Assembly: GCA_030633015.1 (NCBI GenBank)
Contig: DAOVTR010000048.1
Location: 1-8,872 of the forward strand
DNA length: 8,872 bases
Reading direction: 5' to 3'
Source of the DNA: Bdellovibrionales bacterium
Lineage (GTDB): Bacteria; Bdellovibrionota; Bacteriovoracia; Bacteriovoracales; Bacteriovoracaceae
In this document: piece by piece, positions 1-8,872 of the stretch
Position numbering within the stretch: the first letter of the stretch is position 1
How the letters are laid out: every line of letters begins with the position of its first letter
Notes under the pieces: model-generated
What the model was told of the DNA's origin: nothing
The model's database searches: none
What the model saw: the letters and a program-made list of their open reading frames with translations, nothing else
Program-made: the position numbers and the translations under genes

Positions 1-841
1 AGAGAGATTTCCACTTGCATCACATATTCCAATGGTGGTTTTATTTGTAGGGACTATTGCGGTATATTTTGCTGAAGAGTTTACGTTTAAAAGTCTATTC
101 CCTTTTATTGCAACATTTATTTTCTTTTTCAAATTAAGATTGTTCGACGAAATTAAAGATTTTGAGCTAGATAAAAAAATTAATCCTCAGAGGCCTTTGC
201 CTAGAGGGTTGCTTAATGTTAAAAATTTAGAGCATGGAATTATTTTGTGCATAATTGCTGAAGTAATATTGTTTGGTATTTATGGATATTTTGCTCTTTT
301 GTTGGCATTAATTACAATTATGTATTCACTTTTAATGTATAAAGAATTTTTTATTGGAAATTATATTCGTCCTCACTTAACAACTTATGCAATTTCTCAT
401 ACTGTAATAACGGTTCCCTTGTCTTTGACGATTACTCAAACATTGTCTAATACATCACTTTTTAACCAAAGTTTGGATATAGTGTATCTCTCTTTGGCCA
501 ATTGGTGCTTTTTTAATATTTTTGAGTTTGGCCGAAAAACATTTTTAAAAGATGAGGAGAGAGAGGGAGTTGAATCATATTCAAAAATCTTTAAACCATT
601 TGGAGCATATCTTTTAGTTCAGACAATGTCGTTTCTGGCACTCTTTTTTATCTTTTATATCGAAAAATCAATGTCACTCGCAATAAAATTTTTAATAGTC
701 TCTAATTTGATTTTAGCTGTGATTGGGTTCTCTTATGTGCTTATTCACAATAATTCTTGGGGAAAAATATATAGGGCGTTCTCTAGTGGATTTATAATTT
801 TAGCTTATATAGGTATTTGTGCAATAAAACTTTTTTTATAG
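1..841 (+). CDS. UbiA-family prenyltransferase, 5' end missing
   Basis: Integral membrane enzyme of the UbiA superfamily, which transfers a polyprenyl (or similar) group from a diphosphate donor to an acceptor in the inner membrane. The frame is open to base 2 with no stop, and the residues before the first Met (codon at 32) read ERFPLASHIP, so the gene starts outside the window and the Met at 32 is internal. Numbering from that Met, 269 residues are visible. The first Asp-rich motif is FDEIKDFELD at 38-47 (D39, D43, D47, spacing as in the usual NxxxDxxxD), followed by NPQRPLPRG at 51-59. The usual second Asp motif is replaced by FEFGRK (164-169) and KDEEREGVESYS (173-184). Seven or more hydrophobic helices fill the rest (for example 21-38, 69-101, 148-166, 191-210, 216-236, 250-268). 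Its stop at 839-841 overlaps the ribosome binding site of the next gene, so the two are co-expressed. Family assignment is firm; donor and acceptor are unknown. Confidence 0.85.
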   Translation, partial: ERFPLASHIPMVVLFVGTIAVYFAEEFTFKSLFPFIATFIFFFKLRLFDEIKDFELDKKINPQRPLPRGLLNVKNLEHGIILCIIAEVILFGIYGYFALLLALITIMYSLLMYKEFFIGNYIRPHLTTYAISHTVITVPLSLTITQTLSNTSLFNQSLDIVYLSLANWCFFNIFEFGRKTFLKDEEREGVESYSKIFKPFGAYLLVQTMSFLALFFIFYIEKSMSLAIKFLIVSNLILAVIGFSYVLIHNNSWGKIYRAFSSGFIILAYIGICAIKLFL

Positions 842-846
842 GAGAG
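841..846 (+). promoter_or_regulatory. Ribosome binding site for the TTG start at 851
   Basis: GGAGAG lies 4 bases before the TTG at 851 (6 bases when counted from the GGAG core). An in-frame TAG at 839-841 rules out any earlier start, and the conserved GGKG motif comes only 17 codons after the TTG, so the rare start codon is well supported. The site shares its first base with the stop codon of the preceding gene, which suggests translational coupling. Confidence 0.7.
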
Positions 847-850
847 ACAA

Positions 851-3541
851 TTGATTATTACTGAAGACAGCTCACGAAATTATGTTGAAAAATTTGCAGG
901 AGGAAAGGGATATAATTTATACCTTTTAACTAAAGCCGGATTTAATGTTCCGAAATGGAATGTTATTTCTTCGCAACTATTTGAAACATTCAAACGCAAT
1001 AATAACTTAAAAATTAAGCTAGAAGAAATTATTGATAGCAATAAACAAAACTTTAAGGCCATGTCTGTTGAAATTAGCAAGTTAATTTTAAATGGAACAA
1101 TTAGTGATAAATTATTAAATGAACTTGGGTTTGCCTATGATCAACTTTCAAGTAATTTAATTGCAGTAAGATCATCGGCAATAGGAGAGGATTCTGCAGG
1201 ATATTCTTTCGCAGGTCAACTTAGCTCTTATCTATTTATAAAAGATAAAAGCACAGCAATTGAAAAAATAAAGCAGTGCTGGGCTTCAGCGTATTCTGAA
1301 AGATCGTTGGTATATCGAAATCAAAACTCACTTAGCTTAAAAGATATAAGCGTTGCAGTTGTTCTTCAGCAGATGGTCAATTCAGAAAAAAGTGGAGTGC
1401 TTTTTACTTCTAATCCAGTAAATAAGGATCCAGAACAAATTGTGATTAATTCTGTTTATGGAATTGGAGAAGGAGTTGTATCAGGGGAGCTTGATGCTGA
1501 TACTTTTGTTATAGATCGTTTGTCAGGTGAAGTTAAAGAAAAAATAATTGCTTCAAAACCCTCCATGTTCGTAAACGATAGCAAAAGCTTTGGAATTATA
1601 GAAGTAGGTGTTGATATAAAAAAACAAGAACTTTCTAGTTTAGATAATTTAGAGTTGGAAGAGCTTAGAACCCTTGCTAATAAAATAGATGATTTTTATA
1701 ATTTTCCTCAAGATGTAGAGTGGGCCGTTGTTTCGAAGAAATTATATATACTACAATCGCGGCCAATTACCACGCAAATCAATAATAGAAATGGACTACT
1801 TTATATATGGGATAATTCAAATATTGTGGAAAGTTATGGCGGAATAACCAAGCCTTTAACTTTTGATTTTGCTAGGTTTGTTTATCACAATGTCTATGTT
1901 CAGTTTGCTGAAATACTTTTAGTTCCTTCAAAGCAAATCAAGGAAATGGACTATTTTTTGAGAAATATGCTTGGTATTTTTTACGGAAGAATATATTACA
2001 ATCTTTTAAATTGGTATAAGCTAACGAGTATTCTTCCAGGGTTTAAATATAATAGATCATTTATGGAAACTATGATGGGCACTTCTGAATCCTTGGCCGA
2101 TGAAGTTGCCGAGCGCATTCGGCCACCAGAGTTTGAAAAAACATTCCTTGCAACAATAAGAAGAGCTATCACTGGTTTGAAGTTTTTATATTTTCACTTT
2201 GCTATTCAGCCCATTGTTGATCGATTTTTAAAATATTTCCATAAGGAGTATGATCGAGTAAGGCATTTAGATTTTAGATCAATGACAGCAGATGAAATTT
2301 ATGGATATTACCAAGTTGTTGAGCGGAAATTTCTTAGACAATGGAAAGCCCCCATTATTAATGACTACATTTGTATGGTTCATTTTGGTCTGTTTAAAAA
2401 ATTATGTGAAAAATGGCTGGGATCACTTGGGCCATCTATTCAAAATGATCTTTTGTGTGGAGATGGTAATTATGAATCAGCACAACCAACGAGAGAGATG
2501 ATTCGAATTGCAAATTTTGTTGAAGGTAATAAAAAATTAAAAAAATTAATTTTAGAAAATAGTAATATTGATTTATTAGATTTAATTAGAAGAGGTGAAT
2601 ACAAGGTACTTAAATCATTAATAGATGATTATCTTGATAAGTATGGATTTCGTTGTATGAGCGAAATGAAACTTGAGCAAGTTGATTTGCACTTAGAACC
2701 TTCTACTTTTTTTGCTTTTTTAAAAAATTATCTAAGAAATAAGCCTGTAAGCTTAGATGAAATGGACAAAAATGAGCAGAAAATAAGGTCGACTTCTGAG
2801 AAGAGTGCTTTTGAAGCTATTTCAGGTTTTAAAAAACTTATTTTTAGATGGTCACTTAAAAATGCCAGGCAGGCCGTTAGAAATAGAGAGAACACTAGGT
2901 TTTGTAGAACTAGAATTTATGGTGTTGTAAGAGCAATGTTTTTTGCAATTGGTGAAGACTTTGTCAAAAGACAAATAATTGAAACAAAAGAAGATGTTTT
3001 TTATCTATCTCTGCCTGAGTTATCTGGGGCAATTGAAGGAACAAATCCAATCATAGATTTAAAAAAGATGATTAATGCAAGAAAATTAGAATATTTAGAA
3101 TTTGAAAAACATGAGCCAGATTCACGTTTTATGACGAGAGGGCCTGTCTATTGGAATAATACTCACTTTTCCAAGGAAGAAGTTTTTCAGACGGATGAAC
3201 AACTCTCTTCACGAATAATTAAAGGAATAGGTTGTTGTCCAGGGATTGTTGAAGGAAAAGTTAAGGTAATCATGTCACCAGATGATGATCTAGAGCTTAA
3301 TAAAGATATCCTTGTTACTATGAGAACAGATCCAGGATGGGTTCCACTTTTTCCTGCTGCTTCAGCGCTGCTTGTTGAGAGAGGTGGATTGTTATCCCAT
3401 TCAGCTATCGTTGCCAGAGAGATGGGAATTCCAGCTGTCGTAAGTATAAAAGGTCTTACAAAAATATTAAAGACTGGAATGAATGTTAGAATTAATGGTG
3501 AGACAGGTATAGTTGAAATTTTAGATGAAATATCGGAGTGA
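851..3541 (+). CDS. PEP synthase-related phosphotransferase with C-terminal phosphohistidine domain (rifampicin-phosphotransferase-like layout)
   Basis: An 896-residue cytosolic enzyme of the dikinase superfamily. The N-terminal ATP-binding domain (about 1-306) shows GGKGYNL (17-23), AVRSSAIGED (105-114), FAGQ (120-123), PQDVEWAV (286-293) and LQSRPI (301-306). The C-terminal domain (about 788-896) is the swivelling phosphohistidine domain: GIGCCPGIVEG (792-802) and GGLLSHSAIVARE (845-857), with H850 the expected phospho-carrier. Order is ATP-grasp, long middle region (about 310-785), His domain, with no PEP/pyruvate TIM barrel after the His domain. True PEP synthase and pyruvate phosphate dikinase place the barrel last; rifampicin phosphotransferase has the order seen here. 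The middle region carries NIVESYGGITKPLTF (324-338), YGRIYYNLLNWY (378-389) and, near its end, REN (679-681) and KEDVFYLS (713-720). It should set the acceptor. Known chemistry for this layout is ATP to AMP + Pi with the beta-phosphate passed through His to the acceptor. Start is TTG, decided by the site at 841-846. 'PEP synthase' would be a misleading name; the acceptor is unknown, and the neighbourhood suggests a lipid or lipid precursor. Confidence 0.85.
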   Translation: MIITEDSSRNYVEKFAGGKGYNLYLLTKAGFNVPKWNVISSQLFETFKRNNNLKIKLEEIIDSNKQNFKAMSVEISKLILNGTISDKLLNELGFAYDQLSSNLIAVRSSAIGEDSAGYSFAGQLSSYLFIKDKSTAIEKIKQCWASAYSERSLVYRNQNSLSLKDISVAVVLQQMVNSEKSGVLFTSNPVNKDPEQIVINSVYGIGEGVVSGELDADTFVIDRLSGEVKEKIIASKPSMFVNDSKSFGIIEVGVDIKKQELSSLDNLELEELRTLANKIDDFYNFPQDVEWAVVSKKLYILQSRPITTQINNRNGLLYIWDNSNIVESYGGITKPLTFDFARFVYHNVYVQFAEILLVPSKQIKEMDYFLRNMLGIFYGRIYYNLLNWYKLTSILPGFKYNRSFMETMMGTSESLADEVAERIRPPEFEKTFLATIRRAITGLKFLYFHFAIQPIVDRFLKYFHKEYDRVRHLDFRSMTADEIYGYYQVVERKFLRQWKAPIINDYICMVHFGLFKKLCEKWLGSLGPSIQNDLLCGDGNYESAQPTREMIRIANFVEGNKKLKKLILENSNIDLLDLIRRGEYKVLKSLIDDYLDKYGFRCMSEMKLEQVDLHLEPSTFFAFLKNYLRNKPVSLDEMDKNEQKIRSTSEKSAFEAISGFKKLIFRWSLKNARQAVRNRENTRFCRTRIYGVVRAMFFAIGEDFVKRQIIETKEDVFYLSLPELSGAIEGTNPIIDLKKMINARKLEYLEFEKHEPDSRFMTRGPVYWNNTHFSKEEVFQTDEQLSSRIIKGIGCCPGIVEGKVKVIMSPDDDLELNKDILVTMRTDPGWVPLFPAASALLVERGGLLSHSAIVAREMGIPAVVSIKGLTKILKTGMNVRINGETGIVEILDEISE
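3535..3538 (+). promoter_or_regulatory. Ribosome binding site deciding the ATG start at 3544
   Basis: GGAG sits 5 bases before the ATG at 3544. A GTG at 3538 is in the same frame, but it begins on the last base of this site and so could not use it. The ATG at 3544 is therefore preferred, two codons shorter than the longest reading. The site lies inside the last codons of the upstream phosphotransferase gene. Confidence 0.65.
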
Positions 3542-3543
3542 TA

Positions 3544-4233
3544 ATGGATGAGCTATTATTAGATGCTAAGAATTTAGATTTTAAGTACCATTTAGGTCAT
3601 CAAACAATTCATGCACTAAAAGATGTAAACTTAAAAATTAACAAGCAGGATTTTATTTGTCTATATGGCCCTTCTGGTTCGGGAAAATCTACTTTACTTA
3701 ATGTTTTAGGGCTTGTTGAAAACATTCAAGAAGGAGATCTACTTTTTAAAGGGGATTCAATTAAAAATATTAGTGAAAACAAAAAAAATAGGTTAAGAAA
3801 ATTTAATTTTGGGTTTGTATTTCAAAGTTTCCATCTGAATCCAGTTTTAACTGCTTATGAAAATGTAGATTTCTTTTTATCAAGACAGAAGATACCTGTA
3901 AAAGAGAGACAACGCATTGTATGGGAATCGCTCAAAAGTGTAGGACTTGAAGAGTTTGCAGACACAAAACCACTACAATTAAGTGGAGGACAGAGGCAAA
4001 GGGTTGCAATCGCTCGTGCTCTTGCAAAGAAACCAGAAGTGATAATTGCTGATGAGCCAACGGCCAGTCTTGATCAAAAGACAGGTGAAGAGATAATGAA
4101 TCTTTTTATTGATTTAAATTTAAAGCATAAGGTTAGTATTATACTAGCAAGTCATGATCAGATGGTTATAGAAAAATCACCCATTAAAATTTCACTAAAA
4201 GATGGAATGATTAGTAGGGATAAATTATGTTAA
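3544..4233 (+). CDS. ABC transporter ATP-binding protein, LolD/MacB type
   Basis: Cytoplasmic ATPase that powers the permease encoded next. All ABC motifs are intact. With numbering from the alternative GTG at 3538 (subtract 2 for the ATG start), Walker A is GPSGSGKST at 44-52, the Q-loop is Q96 in FVFQ, the signature LSGGQRQR is at 148-155, Walker B with catalytic Glu is VIIADEP at 168-174 (E173), and the H-loop is H206 in ASHD. Length of 229 residues and the sequence after Walker A (STLLNVLGLVE) are typical of the LolD/MacB/FtsE class, which works on lipoproteins, lipids or peptides extracted from the inner membrane rather than classic import. The stop overlaps the permease start by 7 bases. 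Family is firm; substrate is not readable from the ATPase. The name lolD is withheld because this is probably a specialised paralogue beside lipid-type genes, not necessarily the housekeeping lipoprotein exporter. Confidence 0.92.
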   Translation: MDELLLDAKNLDFKYHLGHQTIHALKDVNLKINKQDFICLYGPSGSGKSTLLNVLGLVENIQEGDLLFKGDSIKNISENKKNRLRKFNFGFVFQSFHLNPVLTAYENVDFFLSRQKIPVKERQRIVWESLKSVGLEEFADTKPLQLSGGQRQRVAIARALAKKPEVIIADEPTASLDQKTGEEIMNLFIDLNLKHKVSIILASHDQMVIEKSPIKISLKDGMISRDKLC

Positions 4234-5432
4234 TTAAAATTGCATTTAAAAATTTATTTAGAAATCCAAGAAGATCTTTTGCTATTTTAATAACAGTGGC
4301 ACTCGGTGTAAGTTCTCTTTTTTTATATCATGGTTTTAATTTTGGAATAATGAATCAGTATCGTGTTAATACGATTCGAACACATTATGGCCATGGACAG
4401 ATCAATACAGTGGGGTATCGAAATCAGGTTTATGAAAAACCATGGGAACATTGGATTGATAATTATCAAGAGATTTATAAGAAACTTAAAGGAAATCCAA
4501 AAATTAAGCATGTGTTTCCTCGGTTGCAGTTTTATGGATTGTTAACAAATGGTAAAATTAATGTTAGTGGTAAAGGGCAGGGAGTAGATGCACTCGAGGA
4601 GTCAAAGTTTTTTACCGCATTAAATATTATTGATGGTAAAATGTTAACTGATGAGATTGATGGAGTTATGCTTGGAAAGGGACTAGCAAGGTCGTTAAAC
4701 GTCGGTCTTGGGGATAGAGTAACAGTTTTAGTAAATACAGTTTACGGAAGTTTAAATGGAGTTGATCTAAATGTCGTAGGAATATTTCATACTGGAATAA
4801 AAGATTTTGACGACGCAGTTTTTAGACTTCCAATTAAGCAAGCACAATTTATTTTAGATACGAATAAAGTCGAGAGTATCTCTCTCGGACTTGCTAAAGA
4901 TAGTTATTGGAAAGAAGTTAAGTTTGATATAGAGAAAATATATAATAATTTAGAATTGACTCCTTTTGAGATATTAGACAAAGTCTTTTATCAAAATGCT
5001 ATTGATTTTTTAAAAAAACAGTTTGATTTTATTAAAATAATTATCATCATCATTGTTGTTTTAGGGATTTTTAATACGGTATCAACATCCGTATTAGAAA
5101 GAAAACAGGAAATTGGAAATTTACGTGCGAATGGAGAATCAGCAAAAGATGTAATGAGTCTACTTCTGTTTGAGGCGGTACTGCTTGGTTTTATTGGTGG
5201 CGTATTAGGGATTTTGGTATCAGTTATTATAAATAATACTTTACTGATAAATGGCGTGTTGATGCCACCAAGTCCGGGTTTAACCCGCCAATTTAATGTT
5301 TTTGTTGAGCTTCAGCCATATTATGGTCTTGTAACGTTACTGATAGGATTAGCAACGACAACAGTTGGAGTTTTGGTAGCGGGATATAAAATTGTTCTAA
5401 CTCCAATTGCTCAATTGTTGCGTTCAGCTTAG
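4227..5432 (+). CDS. FtsX/LolC-E-type ABC transporter permease
   Basis: Inner-membrane partner of the preceding ATPase, 401 residues. Topology is the four-helix FtsX/MacB/Lol type: a basic N-terminus (FKNLFRNPRRS), TM1 at about 17-39, a large periplasmic domain at about 40-266, then TM2 (268-290), TM3 (311-337) and TM4 (367-389). The cytoplasmic ERKQEIGNLRANG at 291-303 matches the coupling segment of FtsX-domain permeases (usual form ERxxEIGxLRAxG). The loop MPPSPGLT (346-353) before TM4 is also usual for LolE-like members. There is one permease gene, so the transporter is likely a homodimer plus two ATPases, unlike the LolC/LolE heterodimer of E. coli. AGGGA at 4216-4220 lies 6 bases before the ATG, inside the ATPase gene, and the start overlaps the ATPase stop (ATGTTAA, 4227-4233). 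Four helices with a periplasmic domain fit extraction of a lipid-anchored or lipid substrate from the outer leaflet of the inner membrane. Confidence 0.9.
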   Translation: MLIKIAFKNLFRNPRRSFAILITVALGVSSLFLYHGFNFGIMNQYRVNTIRTHYGHGQINTVGYRNQVYEKPWEHWIDNYQEIYKKLKGNPKIKHVFPRLQFYGLLTNGKINVSGKGQGVDALEESKFFTALNIIDGKMLTDEIDGVMLGKGLARSLNVGLGDRVTVLVNTVYGSLNGVDLNVVGIFHTGIKDFDDAVFRLPIKQAQFILDTNKVESISLGLAKDSYWKEVKFDIEKIYNNLELTPFEILDKVFYQNAIDFLKKQFDFIKIIIIIIVVLGIFNTVSTSVLERKQEIGNLRANGESAKDVMSLLLFEAVLLGFIGGVLGILVSVIINNTLLINGVLMPPSPGLTRQFNVFVELQPYYGLVTLLIGLATTTVGVLVAGYKIVLTPIAQLLRSA

Positions 5433-5441
5433 GAGTTTAAA

Positions 5442-6125
5442 ATGAAATATCTGTTAATAATTTTTTTCTCGTTTAATCTTTACGCTCAAGACGCTGGCAA
5501 TATAATAAAGAAAGCAGACTCTATTAGAAACCCAATGAAATCATTTTATATGCAAGTTGAAGTTGAAAGTTCAGATGCCCCCTTTTCTAAGTTTGAGGTT
5601 TTTACCAAAGGAAAAACAAAAACATTAATTAAAACACTTCTACCGAAAAAAGATAGGGGAAGAAACCTTTTAATGCTTGATGAACAAATGTGGATTTTTA
5701 TTCCAAACTTAAGAAGGTCAGTAAGAGTTGCCCTTTCTCAGAAGTTAACTGGACAGACTTCAAATGGAGACATTAGCAGAATGAACTGGTCTAGTGATTA
5801 TAATAGTTCAATTGTAGATCAGGATAAAAATCAGTGGAAAATTTTTTTAAAGTCAAACAAGAAGGGACTTACCTACGATCAACTTTACGTATGGATAGAG
5901 AAAAATACTTTTAGGCCTATAAAAGCAGAGTACCTTTCGTTAAGTGGAAAACCTTTAAAGTTGGCCACGTTTAGTGGTTATAAACTTATTGCAGGAAAAG
6001 CTCGGCCAACAGTGATAAAAATTGAAAATGCATTAAATAAGACAAGCTTTTCGACTATGAATATTATTAAAATGGAAATTAGAAAAATTCCTAACCGATA
6101 TTTTAATAAGCAAAATTTAAAATGA
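5442..6125 (+). CDS. LolA-like outer membrane lipoprotein-sorting protein (periplasmic carrier)
   Basis: Secreted 227-residue protein of the LolA-like 'outer membrane lipoprotein-sorting' group, predicted to shield a lipid or acylated substrate in the periplasm. A short signal peptide (MKYLLIIFFSFNLYA, cleavage likely after A15) precedes the mature chain, which starts QDAGNIIKKADSIRNP, a helix usual in this group. Then come beta-strand-rich segments: SKFEVFTKGKTKTLIKTL (49-66), DRGRNLLMLDEQMWIFIPNL (71-90) and RRSVRV (91-96), matching the family pattern 'RGxxxLxxxxxxWxYxPxxxRxxRI'. The later region TYDQLYVWIEKNTFRPIKAEYL (144-165) continues the half-barrel pattern. No lipobox Cys is present, so it should be soluble. 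AGGAG at 5431-5435 is 6 bases before the ATG and overlaps the permease stop (5430-5432). Position between permease and barrel makes it the natural shuttle of this system. No LolB-like receptor is visible; the barrel downstream may take that role (inference). Confidence 0.82.
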   Translation: MKYLLIIFFSFNLYAQDAGNIIKKADSIRNPMKSFYMQVEVESSDAPFSKFEVFTKGKTKTLIKTLLPKKDRGRNLLMLDEQMWIFIPNLRRSVRVALSQKLTGQTSNGDISRMNWSSDYNSSIVDQDKNQWKIFLKSNKKGLTYDQLYVWIEKNTFRPIKAEYLSLSGKPLKLATFSGYKLIAGKARPTVIKIENALNKTSFSTMNIIKMEIRKIPNRYFNKQNLK

Positions 6126-7303
6126 ATAATATGATTAAAGGTTTAATTTTATCTGTCTTTTTATTTTCCATTAATGGAATTTGTTCAACCCCAAAAGTTA
6201 AATTAGGGTTTGAATATACATTTCAAGTTTTTCAACAAAAAACTCCAGAATCTCTTTATTCACATCTTTTTTTTGATTTTGATTATACCTATAATTCAAG
6301 CCTTATATTAGACGATAGTTTTATTTTTATAAAAGTTAAGACTTTAGGTGATTTTCAAAACGATAACTATGTAGAGGTTAAAATTAGTGATTTATACTTC
6401 TCGAAAAGTGGAGATCGTTTTGATTTAAAAACAGGATATCAAATTATCAATTGGAGTGAAACGTTTGGAATAAATATTATGGATATCGTTAATCCCAGAG
6501 ATTATAGTTACGGTATATTTGGTGATCTTGAGGATATGCAAAAATCAGTTTTTACAATTAATTACCAATTGCTATTTGATAAATATAATTTCCAATTTGT
6601 TTTTACTCCAAAAGTAGAATCTGATAAGTTTCCAGATGTTTCGAGTGTGTATAGTACATTGCCGACAACTGTTCGTGGCCTAGTTGTAAATGATTTTCCA
6701 TCTTATCAAATTTTCAATGAATTAGAGTATGGCCTTAAAATAAATTACCTGGCCGATAATGGAATAGATCTGAATTTTATTTATTTTTTTCATCAGAATA
6801 GAAACCCAATATATGAGATTAAAAAGAATCAACTGTATCCAGTCAGTGAATTTATTAATTCTTACGGTATTACTTGTTCTAAGGCCTTTACTCATTTTGT
6901 TTTAAGAGGAGATCTGTTGTTGGATATAAATTCTCCATATATTGATAATAGTTTAATTGTGCACACTAAAGATCGATTTCAGACTGTCATGGGTTTAGAT
7001 TATCAAGGGGCCAGTGAAAGTATTATTGCATTTCAAAGCTTTTACAGTAGTGAGTATGAAAAAATATGGTTAGCTTTTCAGTATAAAGATTCATTTTTAA
7101 AAAAGTCACTTGATGCAACTTTTACTGTATTTAAAGGGATTTATAATAACGATGTATGGATTACAACAGAGATTGTTAAATCTTTTAATGATTCCATGTC
7201 ATTACTATTTAAGTTTGATCTTCTGGATGGAAAAAAAATTGATCTTATCGGTCAATACCGTGATGTTGATAGAATTTCTTTAAAGTTTAATTATTTTTAT
7301 TAA
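6122..7303 (+). CDS. Outer-membrane beta-barrel protein, DUF1302-like
   Basis: A 393-residue protein with a signal peptide (MIKGLILSVFLFSINGICS, likely cut before T23; NGIC is not a good lipobox). The mature part is rich in alternating polar/aromatic strands and ends ISLKFNYFY, an aromatic C-terminus typical of BAM-inserted barrels. The segment SDLYFSKSGDRFDLKTGYQI (89-108), NWSETFGINIMDIVNPRDY (110-128) and the following GDLEDMQKSVFTINY (134-148) resembles the DUF1302 hallmark, where a strand pair ends in Q-hydrophobic-W-G-x-x-G-x-N-x-x-D-x-x-NPRD and continues to a PEDxR-like turn. The ATG at 6122 overlaps the stop of the LolA-like gene (ATGA) and has no visible Shine-Dalgarno, so translation probably depends on coupling; an in-frame ATG at 6131 (residue 4) is a second candidate. 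DUF1302 barrels often sit beside LolA-like proteins and exporters, which fits a role as outer-membrane acceptor or channel for the exported lipid. Exact function unknown. Confidence 0.72.
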   Translation: MNNMIKGLILSVFLFSINGICSTPKVKLGFEYTFQVFQQKTPESLYSHLFFDFDYTYNSSLILDDSFIFIKVKTLGDFQNDNYVEVKISDLYFSKSGDRFDLKTGYQIINWSETFGINIMDIVNPRDYSYGIFGDLEDMQKSVFTINYQLLFDKYNFQFVFTPKVESDKFPDVSSVYSTLPTTVRGLVVNDFPSYQIFNELEYGLKINYLADNGIDLNFIYFFHQNRNPIYEIKKNQLYPVSEFINSYGITCSKAFTHFVLRGDLLLDINSPYIDNSLIVHTKDRFQTVMGLDYQGASESIIAFQSFYSSEYEKIWLAFQYKDSFLKKSLDATFTVFKGIYNNDVWITTEIVKSFNDSMSLLFKFDLLDGKKIDLIGQYRDVDRISLKFNYFY

Positions 7304-7311
7304 GTTTTTTT
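7282..7311 (+). terminator. Weak candidate terminator at the end of the operon
   Basis: Bases 7282-7291 (AAAGTTTAAT) can pair with 7299-7308 (ATTAAGTTTT) around a 7-base loop: ten pairs, two of them G-U wobbles and none G-C. A run of seven T spans 7305-7311, partly within the 3' arm. The structure overlaps the stop codons of both convergent genes. The stem is thermodynamically weak, and such AT-rich pairing is expected now and then by chance, so this is tentative. Only the plus-strand transcript has the U-run. Confidence 0.3.
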
Positions 7312-8872
7312 AATGCATGTTTCCTGCATAGATCAATTTCTTCATTTGTTATTTCGACATCGTGACCCATTATTGCTGATAATCTAACCCCATGTTTCCT
7401 GGCCAGTTGATCAATTTCTCTTACTTTTTGGTAGCTAATATTTCGAGATAATGTAAAAGATTCAAAGCGTTCCTCTAGTGCTAAAAGAGCAGTCTCTGCA
7501 AGGCATGCATAAACAACATTTCTTTCTAGACCTATATCACATGATAGTTTAATTTCTCCAGGTAGTTCAACTTCACCGCTTGCAATAACTAATACGTCAG
7601 GTCTTGTAATTGCATCCTCTTTTTTTATATCAAATGGACGACTAACATCACAAATTACACATCCCGGTTTAACCTTTGAAATATCGATTAGTTTTTTTCC
7701 TTGGGCCGAAGTTGTTGTTATCATTAAGTCTACTTCACTTAAATAATTATTGGGGTTTGTTGCAACAACGATTTCACATTGAGGTGAAAGTTCTTTGATG
7801 TCGTCAACGAGTGATAACAATTTGTAGGCGCGTGGAGCTATTAGAATGATTTTTTTCCATGACTTAGAAAGAAGTTTAGCGCTAACTTTTCCAATACTAC
7901 CTGTCGCACCAATAATCATCAGTGTCCCTTGATAGATATTATTTTCTAAAGGGACCAGCTGCATTTTTTTAGTTGCAAAATCAGCCGCCCAAAGGGTAGC
8001 CGCAGCAGATAGTGAATTTCCTGTTGTTACAGGTATGGGACTTCTTTTAGATATGGTAACACCTGCATCTCCAACAATTTTCGTGTACGCTCCAAGTCCA
8101 ATAATTTGAGCACCAAATGATTTTGCTTTAATGGAGATGTTAACAAGTTTTTCGTATATTTTTTCAGGATTGCTTTTTAAAAGCATCTTAGGGGTTTCAA
8201 AAATAGTATAAATATCTCCATAGACCTCTTTGCCTGTTGAAATACTTTTTATGCCAGAGATTTGACCATATTTTGATCCAGGGAGAAAGCCTATCATTTT
8301 TTCTAATGGGCCCTCGATTGTGGATACAAAAGGTTTTACTGCTTTGATACTTGGGTGTCTAAACAGATCATTAATGCTTAGTGGATGTATAATAAAAGCA
8401 AATTTAGATTTAGTGTTAATTTTTTTATCTAGCATTTGAATTTGAGGTCTTAAAGAGAATTTATTAATCCATCCAAAAATATCATCTTCTGTTATTCCCG
8501 AAGGGTCATCTTTATATGCCAGGAAAATTGCTTCAAGCAGTGGAAAGTTAATTCCAGGCAAGTTAAAAATTTCTGGCATGCAATTTATAATGTTAGTTAC
8601 GTTTGCTTTTTTAAGTTTGAATTCGCTATCAGCATTTAAAAAATCAATAATAAAAGTTTTTCCTTTTAAGTTGTTAAGCTTCAAAAGTTCAAGTTGGCTA
8701 GTATTGCCTACAAAGACATCACAGTTTAAAAACTTTTTCAATACCTTACTTTTAGACAGTTTTTTATCTGTAAAATCTTTAAGGGTAGGCTTGTTGATTT
8801 TGTATGGAAAAATAAATGGAAAAATTAATTTTAAAAAAGTTTCAAGCCTTGATGGCCCCTTTAAAAGAAGAG
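7287..8872 (-). CDS. Long-chain acyl-ACP reductase-like protein with N-terminal extension, 5' end missing
   Basis: The C-terminal ~370 residues resemble cyanobacterial acyl-ACP reductase, which reduces long-chain acyl-ACP to fatty aldehyde with NADPH. Numbering from the TTG codon at 8741-8739, the similar part begins at FAFIIHPLS (114-122) and includes GAQIIGLGAYTKIVGDAG (210-227), TTGNSLSAAATLWAA (239-253), the Rossmann loop IIGATGSIG (276-284), VVYACLAETALLALE (409-423) and LARKHGVRLSAI (446-457). C413 in YACLAE matches the cysteine that carries the acyl thioester in the cyanobacterial enzyme. The TTG at 8741 is not a convincing start: the frame stays open without a stop through base 8872 (43 further codons, reading LLLKGPSRLETFLKLIF then on to KKLSKSKVLKKF), so the start lies outside the window. 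The extension before the reductase part is at least about 155 residues, absent from the ~340-residue cyanobacterial enzyme. A 'shikimate dehydrogenase' label would reflect only the shared Rossmann fold. The gene converges on the barrel gene with a 17-base overlap. Family confidence is good; aldehyde production is inferred. Confidence 0.75.
   Translation of the reverse strand, partial: LLLKGPSRLETFLKLIFPFIFPYKINKPTLKDFTDKKLSKSKVLKKFLNCDVFVGNTSQLELLKLNNLKGKTFIIDFLNADSEFKLKKANVTNIINCMPEIFNLPGINFPLLEAIFLAYKDDPSGITEDDIFGWINKFSLRPQIQMLDKKINTKSKFAFIIHPLSINDLFRHPSIKAVKPFVSTIEGPLEKMIGFLPGSKYGQISGIKSISTGKEVYGDIYTIFETPKMLLKSNPEKIYEKLVNISIKAKSFGAQIIGLGAYTKIVGDAGVTISKRSPIPVTTGNSLSAAATLWAADFATKKMQLVPLENNIYQGTLMIIGATGSIGKVSAKLLSKSWKKIILIAPRAYKLLSLVDDIKELSPQCEIVVATNPNNYLSEVDLMITTTSAQGKKLIDISKVKPGCVICDVSRPFDIKKEDAITRPDVLVIASGEVELPGEIKLSCDIGLERNVVYACLAETALLALEERFESFTLSRNISYQKVREIDQLARKHGVRLSAIMGHDVEITNEEIDLCRKHALKKLNKNN

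Follow-up and report, generated by a model that had tools for sequence, protein, structure and literature searches.

A gene cluster of Bdellovibrio relatives that may make an unusual amino-lipid and export it via a Lol-like shuttle

A stretch of 8,872 nucleotides from a Bdellovibrionales bacterium (GenBank assembly GCA_030633015.1, contig DAOVTR010000048.1, positions 1 to 8,872), here called the window, raises the question of what is made and moved by a run of genes in which two enzymes stand directly before a Lol-like transport set. According to the listing of open reading frames (ORFs), six ORFs on the + strand code, in this order, for a UbiA-like enzyme, a rifampin-phosphotransferase-like enzyme (hereafter the phosphotransferase), LolD-like, LolE-like and LolA-like proteins and a distant DUF1302-type barrel. 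They are separated by +9, -4, -7, +9 and -4 bases, which bears out the tightly coupled six-gene run reported in a preliminary description of this DNA. The same order, UbiA-PPDK-LolD-LolE-LolA-barrel, recurs in the loci L005 (where the barrel is split across two ORFs), L046, L048 and L050 and is therefore not a chance neighbourhood. A convergent gene, absent from the preliminary description, codes for an acyl-thioester reductase; its end shares 17 bases with the barrel gene, and it is a member of the same cluster in relatives. Our answer, to which we give a probability of roughly one half (0.52), is that this cluster makes an unusual amino-lipid or lipid-like compound and exports it via a dedicated Lol-like shuttle.

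Transporter and enzyme genes in 290 genomes

The link between shuttle and enzymes was followed in 290 genomes, the phylum of genome G014 that holds the Bdellovibrio locus L044, with profiles of LolE, the phosphotransferase, the reductase, LolA and a BtaA-type protein encoded in related clusters. Since loci identified via the phosphotransferase had gone into the LolE profile, the search was redone with the window LolE alone. This single query recovered the same 40 places, termed class A, with at least 294 bits and 45-66% identity, the next match scoring 205 bits; the identity of the 40 places was checked by reading both lists. Class-A LolE is present in 39 of the 290 genomes, 38 of which also hold a class-A LolA (LolE only, 1; LolA only, 0; neither, 251). 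It shares 35 genomes with the phosphotransferase (LolE only 4, phosphotransferase only 59, neither 192; p = 1.3e-15), 36 with the reductase (3, 50 and 201 in the same order; p = 8.4e-19) and 36 with the BtaA-type protein (3, 60 and 191; p = 1.1e-16), the p-values coming from Fisher tests that treat genomes as independent and ignore kinship. At least one of these three pathway enzymes is encoded in 38 of the 39 class-A genomes, and 35 of the 40 class-A places lie within 10 kb of a gene for one of them; the five more distant places are in G207, G087 and G239 and at both copies of G272. The control consisted of 28 weaker LolE places in 26 genomes (class B), only two of which are within 10 kb of an enzyme gene, and here the counts with the phosphotransferase (both 9, LolE only 17, phosphotransferase only 85, neither 179) gave p = 0.83. 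These counts took the 45 best LolA matches, with LolA distances of class-B places being incomplete, and the two weakest reductase fragments (G190 and G292) were left out, both genomes being already counted through other pieces. An 883-residue ORF of L070, whose LolE score with the self-trained locus profiles was inflated by self-inclusion, was excluded from class A; its genome, G020, had no match in the LolE genome search.

Some individual sets are arranged differently. No LolA or pathway enzyme accompanies the two class-A LolE copies of G272 (L082 and L083) within the 19 kb fetched for each, and the phosphotransferase match of this genome, a weak one of 554.7 bits, lies 70 kb away from one of the copies. 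The class-B set LolE-LolD-barrel-LolA of L097 (genome G060) has no adjoining pathway enzyme, the phosphotransferase being encoded elsewhere in the genome, so that at least one phosphotransferase genome without a class-A permease has a class-B set instead, and the class-B set of L001 is convergent to the phosphotransferase.

In the window, L005, L046, L048 and L050, LolDE lies directly 3' of the phosphotransferase. It follows a GNAT gene in L088 and L090, stands between LolA and the reductase in L087 and L039 and is found up to 17.6 kb from the phosphotransferase elsewhere. That the linkage persists through these reshuffled orders argues for a shared function rather than a frozen order. The linkage is one-way: the transporter accompanies the pathway, and the pathway can do without this transporter, since 59 of the 94 phosphotransferase genomes have no class-A permease, as compared with one of the 39 transporter genomes without any tested enzyme. 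The preliminary description had suggested a search for co-occurrence within 10 kb and had held that independent occurrence would break the functional link; close linkage is indeed seen from the side of the transporter, whereas the phosphotransferase often occurs alone.

A quick tree of 84 phosphotransferase sequences pairs the window with L040 from Halobacteriovorax marinus (SH-aLRT 99), which suggests a Bacteriovoracia-like host. Presence of the transporter, as labelled from loci of limited length (L044 was scored as 'without', its LolE being 13.2 kb away from the phosphotransferase and 6.1 kb past the reductase), takes 18 changes on this tree, 13 of them forced by well-supported branches, versus a mean of 20.4 after shuffling, and 57 of 500 shuffles were as low. 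The label is scattered rather than clustered, and together with the steady linkage this suggests that a linked set has been gained or lost repeatedly.

Table 1. Genes of the window with the scores on which their assignments are based
Feature	Position	Strand	Evidence and remarks
UbiA-superfamily membrane enzyme	2..841	+	5' end beyond window; PF01040 36.2 bits, cut-off 34.2
ATP-grasp/phosphohistidine phosphotransferase-like enzyme (relative of rifampin phosphotransferase and PigC)	851..3541	+	PPDK_N 266 bits, PEP-utilizers 80.8 bits
LolD-like ABC ATPase	3538..4233	+	ABC_tran 118.7 bits; best NCBIfam model LolD 202.8 bits
LolE/FtsX-type permease, sole permease gene of the run (class A)	4227..5432	+	FtsX 62 bits, MacB_PCD 47.5 bits
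Periplasmic LolA-like carrier	5442..6125	+	LolA_like PF17131 131.9 bits, cut-off 30
Distant DUF1302-type outer-membrane barrel	6122..7303	+	DUF1302 14.2 bits, below cut-off 23.2
Acyl-thioester reductase (AAR/PigE-like), convergent	7287..8870	-	PigE model 162.8 bits, AAR model 60.2 bits

Apart from these genes, no RNA family reached the Rfam gathering score in the window and the tRNA scan of the window was empty. Promoter-like sites are no more frequent in it than in shuffles (30 versus 33.2), and terminator-like sites number 6 versus 2.7 in shuffles.

The larger cluster and its enzymes

Scanning genome contigs with the profile of the phosphotransferase yielded 362 confirmed relatives; the locus counts given here refer to the best 80 loci. 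The window is one end of a larger conserved cluster, which in L048 forms a one-direction run of 13 genes for DAGK, SDR, reductase, DUF3419, formyltransferase, a 231-residue protein, ligase, UbiA, phosphotransferase, LolD, LolE, LolA and barrel; the 231-residue protein, which has no Pfam match of its own, occupies the place of a hydrolase domain. A UbiA-like gene or domain directly adjoins the phosphotransferase on the same strand in 67 of the 80 loci. In three of the remaining 13 (L016, L019 and L051) the UbiA-like gene is divergent and lies some 1.6 kb off on the opposite strand, and ten have no visible UbiA-like gene, L013, L057 and L058 among them starting at a contig edge. Upstream of these two genes, relatives code for a formyltransferase and an acyl-ligase, which in L044 is a fusion with an alpha/beta-hydrolase domain. 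The reductase belongs to a second block, together with a DAGK-like lipid kinase, an SDR and a DUF3419 (BtaA-type) protein. All four genes of the second block are inside the fetched stretch in 30 of the 80 loci. Of the 33 loci whose 10-kb flanks are complete, 22 have the BtaA-type gene and 23 the reductase. DUF3419 (PF11899, cut-off 28.2 bits) is matched with 100.3 to 225.1 bits by seven proteins of L048, L044, L020, L070 and L060; some sources name such relatives BtaA or S-adenosylmethionine-diacylglycerol 3-amino-3-carboxypropyl transferase, names that are not tests. Two enzymes had been taken as a pair in the preliminary description, but they are part of a set with a thioester reductase, an SDR, a lipid kinase, a BtaA-type transferase, an acyl-ligase and a formyl- or GNAT transferase.

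The formyltransferase gene is present in 37 of the 80 loci and the GNAT gene in 23. The two are never found in one locus, as expected for alternatives at one step, and they mostly track two phosphotransferase clades. As two unrelated kinds of enzyme that commonly acylate amines replace each other, their mutual replacement suggests that the acceptor is an amine, which might be supplied by the BtaA-type step. In L016, L019 and L051, the phosphotransferase is of clade 1, yet the set next to it is a divergent GNAT-UbiA-ligase one belonging to the other clade, which replaces formyltransferase-ligase-UbiA in a cassette swap. The 775-residue product of a single ORF in L065 (7633-9960) is a fusion of the acyl-ligase (AMP-binding) with UbiA, and an asparagine-synthase-like gene is convergent to the phosphotransferase in L020 (12620-14266), ORFs of similar size and place being present in several other loci.

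The phosphotransferase scores above the cut-off of NF004881, 'phosphoenolpyruvate synthase' (1037.8 versus 883 bits), and below that of TIGR01418, PEP_synth (328.1 versus 739.75 bits). Pfam recognises just PPDK_N and PEP-utilizers in this protein, the latter at the C-terminus, and no C-terminal phosphoenolpyruvate (PEP)/pyruvate-binding domain, which we take to be the defining feature of PEP synthases. Because this domain was not found, the name 'PEP synthase' is probably misleading and the likely result of a misannotation. When aligned with the Listeria rifampin phosphotransferase, the window enzyme keeps the catalytic residues Lys22, Arg117, Glu297, Arg666-Glu667 and His825 and has Ser at the position of Thr136; the roles of residues in the two phosphotransfer steps are described in the rifampin phosphotransferase study (PMC4844700). 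The middle, substrate-binding part does not align with the Listeria enzyme, and the score for the rifampin phosphotransferase model NF041857 is 332.6 bits with a cut-off of 999. The matches to PigC (381.6 bits) and RedH (379.2 bits) are unbroken and span almost the entire protein, the cut-off of the PigC model NF052631 being 1300 bits.

In the reductase, the thioester-forming Cys (AAR Cys294, PigE Cys296) is kept and is invariant in 33 of 33 aligned sequences; its role in thioester formation is given in work on AAR and PigE (PMC8341465). The protein is closer to PigE than to AAR, with a structure match to 4ppm. About 160 N-terminal residues lie beyond the window edge, the full length in relatives being 676-783 residues, and in five relatives the N-terminal approximately 310 residues that precede the reductase domain (for example L048:2748-3680) gave no Pfam match above cut-off. 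In the UbiA-like enzyme, the first UbiA motif, RxxDExKDxxxD...R, is conserved in 60 of 60 relatives (Asp49, Glu50, Asp53 and Asp57), and the protein weakly matches digeranylgeranylglyceryl phosphate synthase (6m31, E = 0.006). No conserved Asp was found in columns 170-196 of the window protein, presumably the place of the second Asp-rich motif, the commonest Asp column having 16 of 60. Since a conserved Asp is missing where motif 2 is expected, the donor may not be a prenyl diphosphate, and the earlier term 'prenyltransferase' is too strong for an enzyme in which motif 1 alone of the UbiA motifs is conserved.

These likenesses could also be read in another way, namely that the product is a diffusible prodiginine- or tambjamine-style metabolite, formed from a fatty aldehyde and an amine with the PigC-like enzyme, and that LolDE, the LolA-like protein and the barrel serve to secrete it and not to move a membrane lipid. 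Such a metabolite would be in line with the nearly whole-length match to PigC and RedH, with a reductase that matches PigE better than AAR and with a cytochrome P450 gene (280 bits) that lies between the barrel-like gene and the ligase in L070 (5864-7579); a study on Castellaniella likewise describes an RND exporter of monoterpenes that uses LolA-superfamily and DUF1302 proteins (PMC6394551). However, the PigC and PigE cut-offs (1300 and 850 bits) are far from reached, no pyrrole-pathway gene is named among the annotated genes (30 proteins of relatives, a part of the neighbours), and the genes for a DAGK-like kinase, a BtaA-type protein and an acyl-ligase speak for lipid chemistry. We consider a secreted metabolite rather unlikely.

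The Lol-like shuttle and the proposed route

The nearest solved chains of the window LolE are LolE (7mdx and 7arh) and LolF (9w37), and the LolA-like profile matches the LolA-superfamily protein NE2245 (3buu, E = 2.2e-58), in agreement with the superfamily membership of the carrier by PF17131. The barrel has no Pfam match at E <= 0.01, and its DUF1302 (PF06980) match, below the gathering score, appears at E <= 0.1; 6 of the 18 members of the barrel alignment match DUF1302 at E <= 0.1 (best 4.3e-17), and the homologues P0122 and P0124 carry precomputed PF06980. A family of about 355 residues that is weakly barrel-like (L044:15824-16891 and relatives in L039, L067, L069 and L074) is encoded beside a LolA-like gene, or beside LolD in L067, and in L065 (14673-16521) LolDE is followed by a Bd3614-like deaminase gene and a YkuD (L,D-transpeptidase) gene, which replace LolA and the barrel.

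The class-A shuttle is best read as separate from the other Lol sets in the same genomes, judging by model scores in eight class-A genomes. Five of them (G003, G014, G015, G101 and G191) have two other permeases with 207-313 bits against lolCE, their own class-A copies scoring 81-106, and the other three (G016, G146 and G238) have weaker extra permeases (best 109-136; class A 91-103). In all eight, PF03548 LolA is found above cut-off away from the linked carrier. One might nevertheless suppose that the shuttle is a second lipoprotein-sorting set for a few lipoproteins, and that the adjoining enzymes make a lipid used by or attached to them. The solved relatives LolE and LolF agree with this, as does the existence of single-permease Lol systems (the LolF entries), but class-A LolE is present in just 39 of the 290 genomes and tracks the pathway enzymes, and LolA in the window is followed by a DUF1302-type barrel and not by a LolB-like lipoprotein, and we regard such a sorting set as quite improbable. 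That enzymes and transporter are mere neighbours with no shared function would suit the many phosphotransferase genomes without the transporter and the scattered label on the tree, but is hardly credible when 35 of 40 class-A places, in varied orders, lie close to an enzyme gene and only 2 of 28 class-B places do.

We return to the synthesis and export of an amino-lipid or lipid-like compound. The protein families, the retained catalytic residues, the co-occurrence and the linkage are read directly from the sequences, and we propose the following chemistry, substrate and direction of transport. The acyl-ligase and the AAR-type reductase would convert a fatty acyl thioester to a fatty aldehyde, perhaps followed by its reduction to an alcohol by the SDR. 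The BtaA-type protein could transfer the 3-amino-3-carboxypropyl group of S-adenosylmethionine to a lipid hydroxyl, and the new amine would then be capped, depending on the clade, by the formyltransferase or by the GNAT transferase. A chain or acceptor might be activated via phosphohistidine by the UbiA-like and phosphotransferase-like enzymes, usual neighbours that would also link the parts within the membrane. LolD and LolE, with one permease gene perhaps forming a homodimer, would extract the product from the inner membrane, the LolA-like protein would ferry it across the periplasm and the DUF1302-type barrel would receive it at the outer membrane. The earlier proposal of lipid-synthesis genes with their own Lol-like route gains support from the co-occurrence and from the linkage across gene orders, whereas a lipid as the transported substrate stays putative.

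Several points weigh against this proposal. The window LolD scores 202.8 bits with the LolD model TIGR02211, below the equivalog cut-off of 307.75, and the window LolE 99.6 bits with the LolC/E model TIGR02212 (cut-off 362.45), a harsh test in this phylum, where no copy in 8 genomes reaches 362. The reductase, which is cut in the window, is likewise below the cut-offs of AAR (TIGR04058, 60.2 versus 449.7 bits) and PigE (NF053554, 162.8 versus 850 bits), and the window itself has no BtaA-type gene. In the genome survey, the 59 phosphotransferase genomes without a class-A permease belong here, one of them being G013, the genome of the window's nearest relative in the phosphotransferase tree (L040), as do four class-A genomes without the phosphotransferase, one of which (G087) is without all three tested enzymes, and the unlinked copies of G239 and G272. 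In addition, kinship is ignored in the p-values and many of the genomes are fragmented.

Each protein family is already known, and the cluster is found in many Bdellovibrio relatives. Among the literature matches listed, which were open-licence papers, there was no description of this cluster or of LolA/DUF1302 proteins combined with a LolDE motor and these enzymes. We speculate, and consider it a doubtful extension, that Bdellovibrio relatives have a novel outer-membrane amino-lipid, for which a UbiA-fold enzyme and its phosphohistidine (PigC/rifampin-phosphotransferase-like) partner act on a chain that is derived from a fatty aldehyde and is not isoprenoid, and that a Lol-type ABC machine once used for lipoproteins now takes this lipid to the outer membrane. 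How lipids are transported to the outer membrane is still debated, and a lipid-dedicated Lol-type ABC machine would, if true, offer a case that can be separated genetically, in a group some of whose predators can be cultured. Orphan enzymes also find a setting in the cluster in which their roles can be tested, namely the rifampin-phosphotransferase-like protein listed in databases as 'PEP synthase', the UbiA-fold enzyme that lacks a conserved second Asp motif and the BtaA relative.

Comparison with known systems

Several known pathways share enzymes with the cluster. The window phosphotransferase has the domain order and the catalytic residues of rifampin phosphotransferase in common with that enzyme, and we do not claim an action on rifampin. 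There is whole-length likeness to PigC and likeness to PigE in the reductase domain, the reductase being without an aminotransferase domain by Pfam; prodigiosin synthesis was rejected as an identity, as the PigC and PigE cut-offs are not reached and no pyrrole gene is named among the annotated genes. The olefin (ole) pathway was rejected as well: the ligase resembles OleC (232.6 bits, cut-off 900) and is hydrolase-fused in L044, and no OleA-type thiolase is named among the annotated genes. With BtaA, the cluster relatives share the Pfam family DUF3419; unlike BtaA, the cluster copies are linked to UbiA, the phosphotransferase, the reductase and the exporter, and no partner methyltransferase, which we take BtaB to be for BtaA, is named among the annotated genes. 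The myxococcal elb ether-lipid operon likewise synthesises lipid with the products of reductase, acyl-ligase and NAD-dependent epimerase-type genes. However, none of the genes annotated here was seen to code for its multidomain ElbD, the description of elb as consulted mentions no UbiA, phosphotransferase, BtaA-type or exporter genes, and identity with elb was rejected on this difference in described gene sets (PMC9131029).

On the transport side, the window has a LolD-type ATPase, a LolE-type permease and a LolA-superfamily carrier, as in LolCDE-LolA sorting, including its single-permease LolDF form. It differs in scores below the LolD and LolC/E equivalog cut-offs, in having one permease gene and LolA_like PF17131 instead of PF03548, and in the DUF1302-type barrel, the linkage to lipid enzymes and the other Lol-like genes elsewhere. 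The AmeABCD system combines the LolA-superfamily protein AmeB and the DUF1302 protein AmeA for a hydrophobic substrate, and the same kinds of proteins are encoded in the window; its motor is an RND pump, clustered with monoterpene degradation, whereas the motor in the window is an ABC/FtsX pair (PMC6394551).

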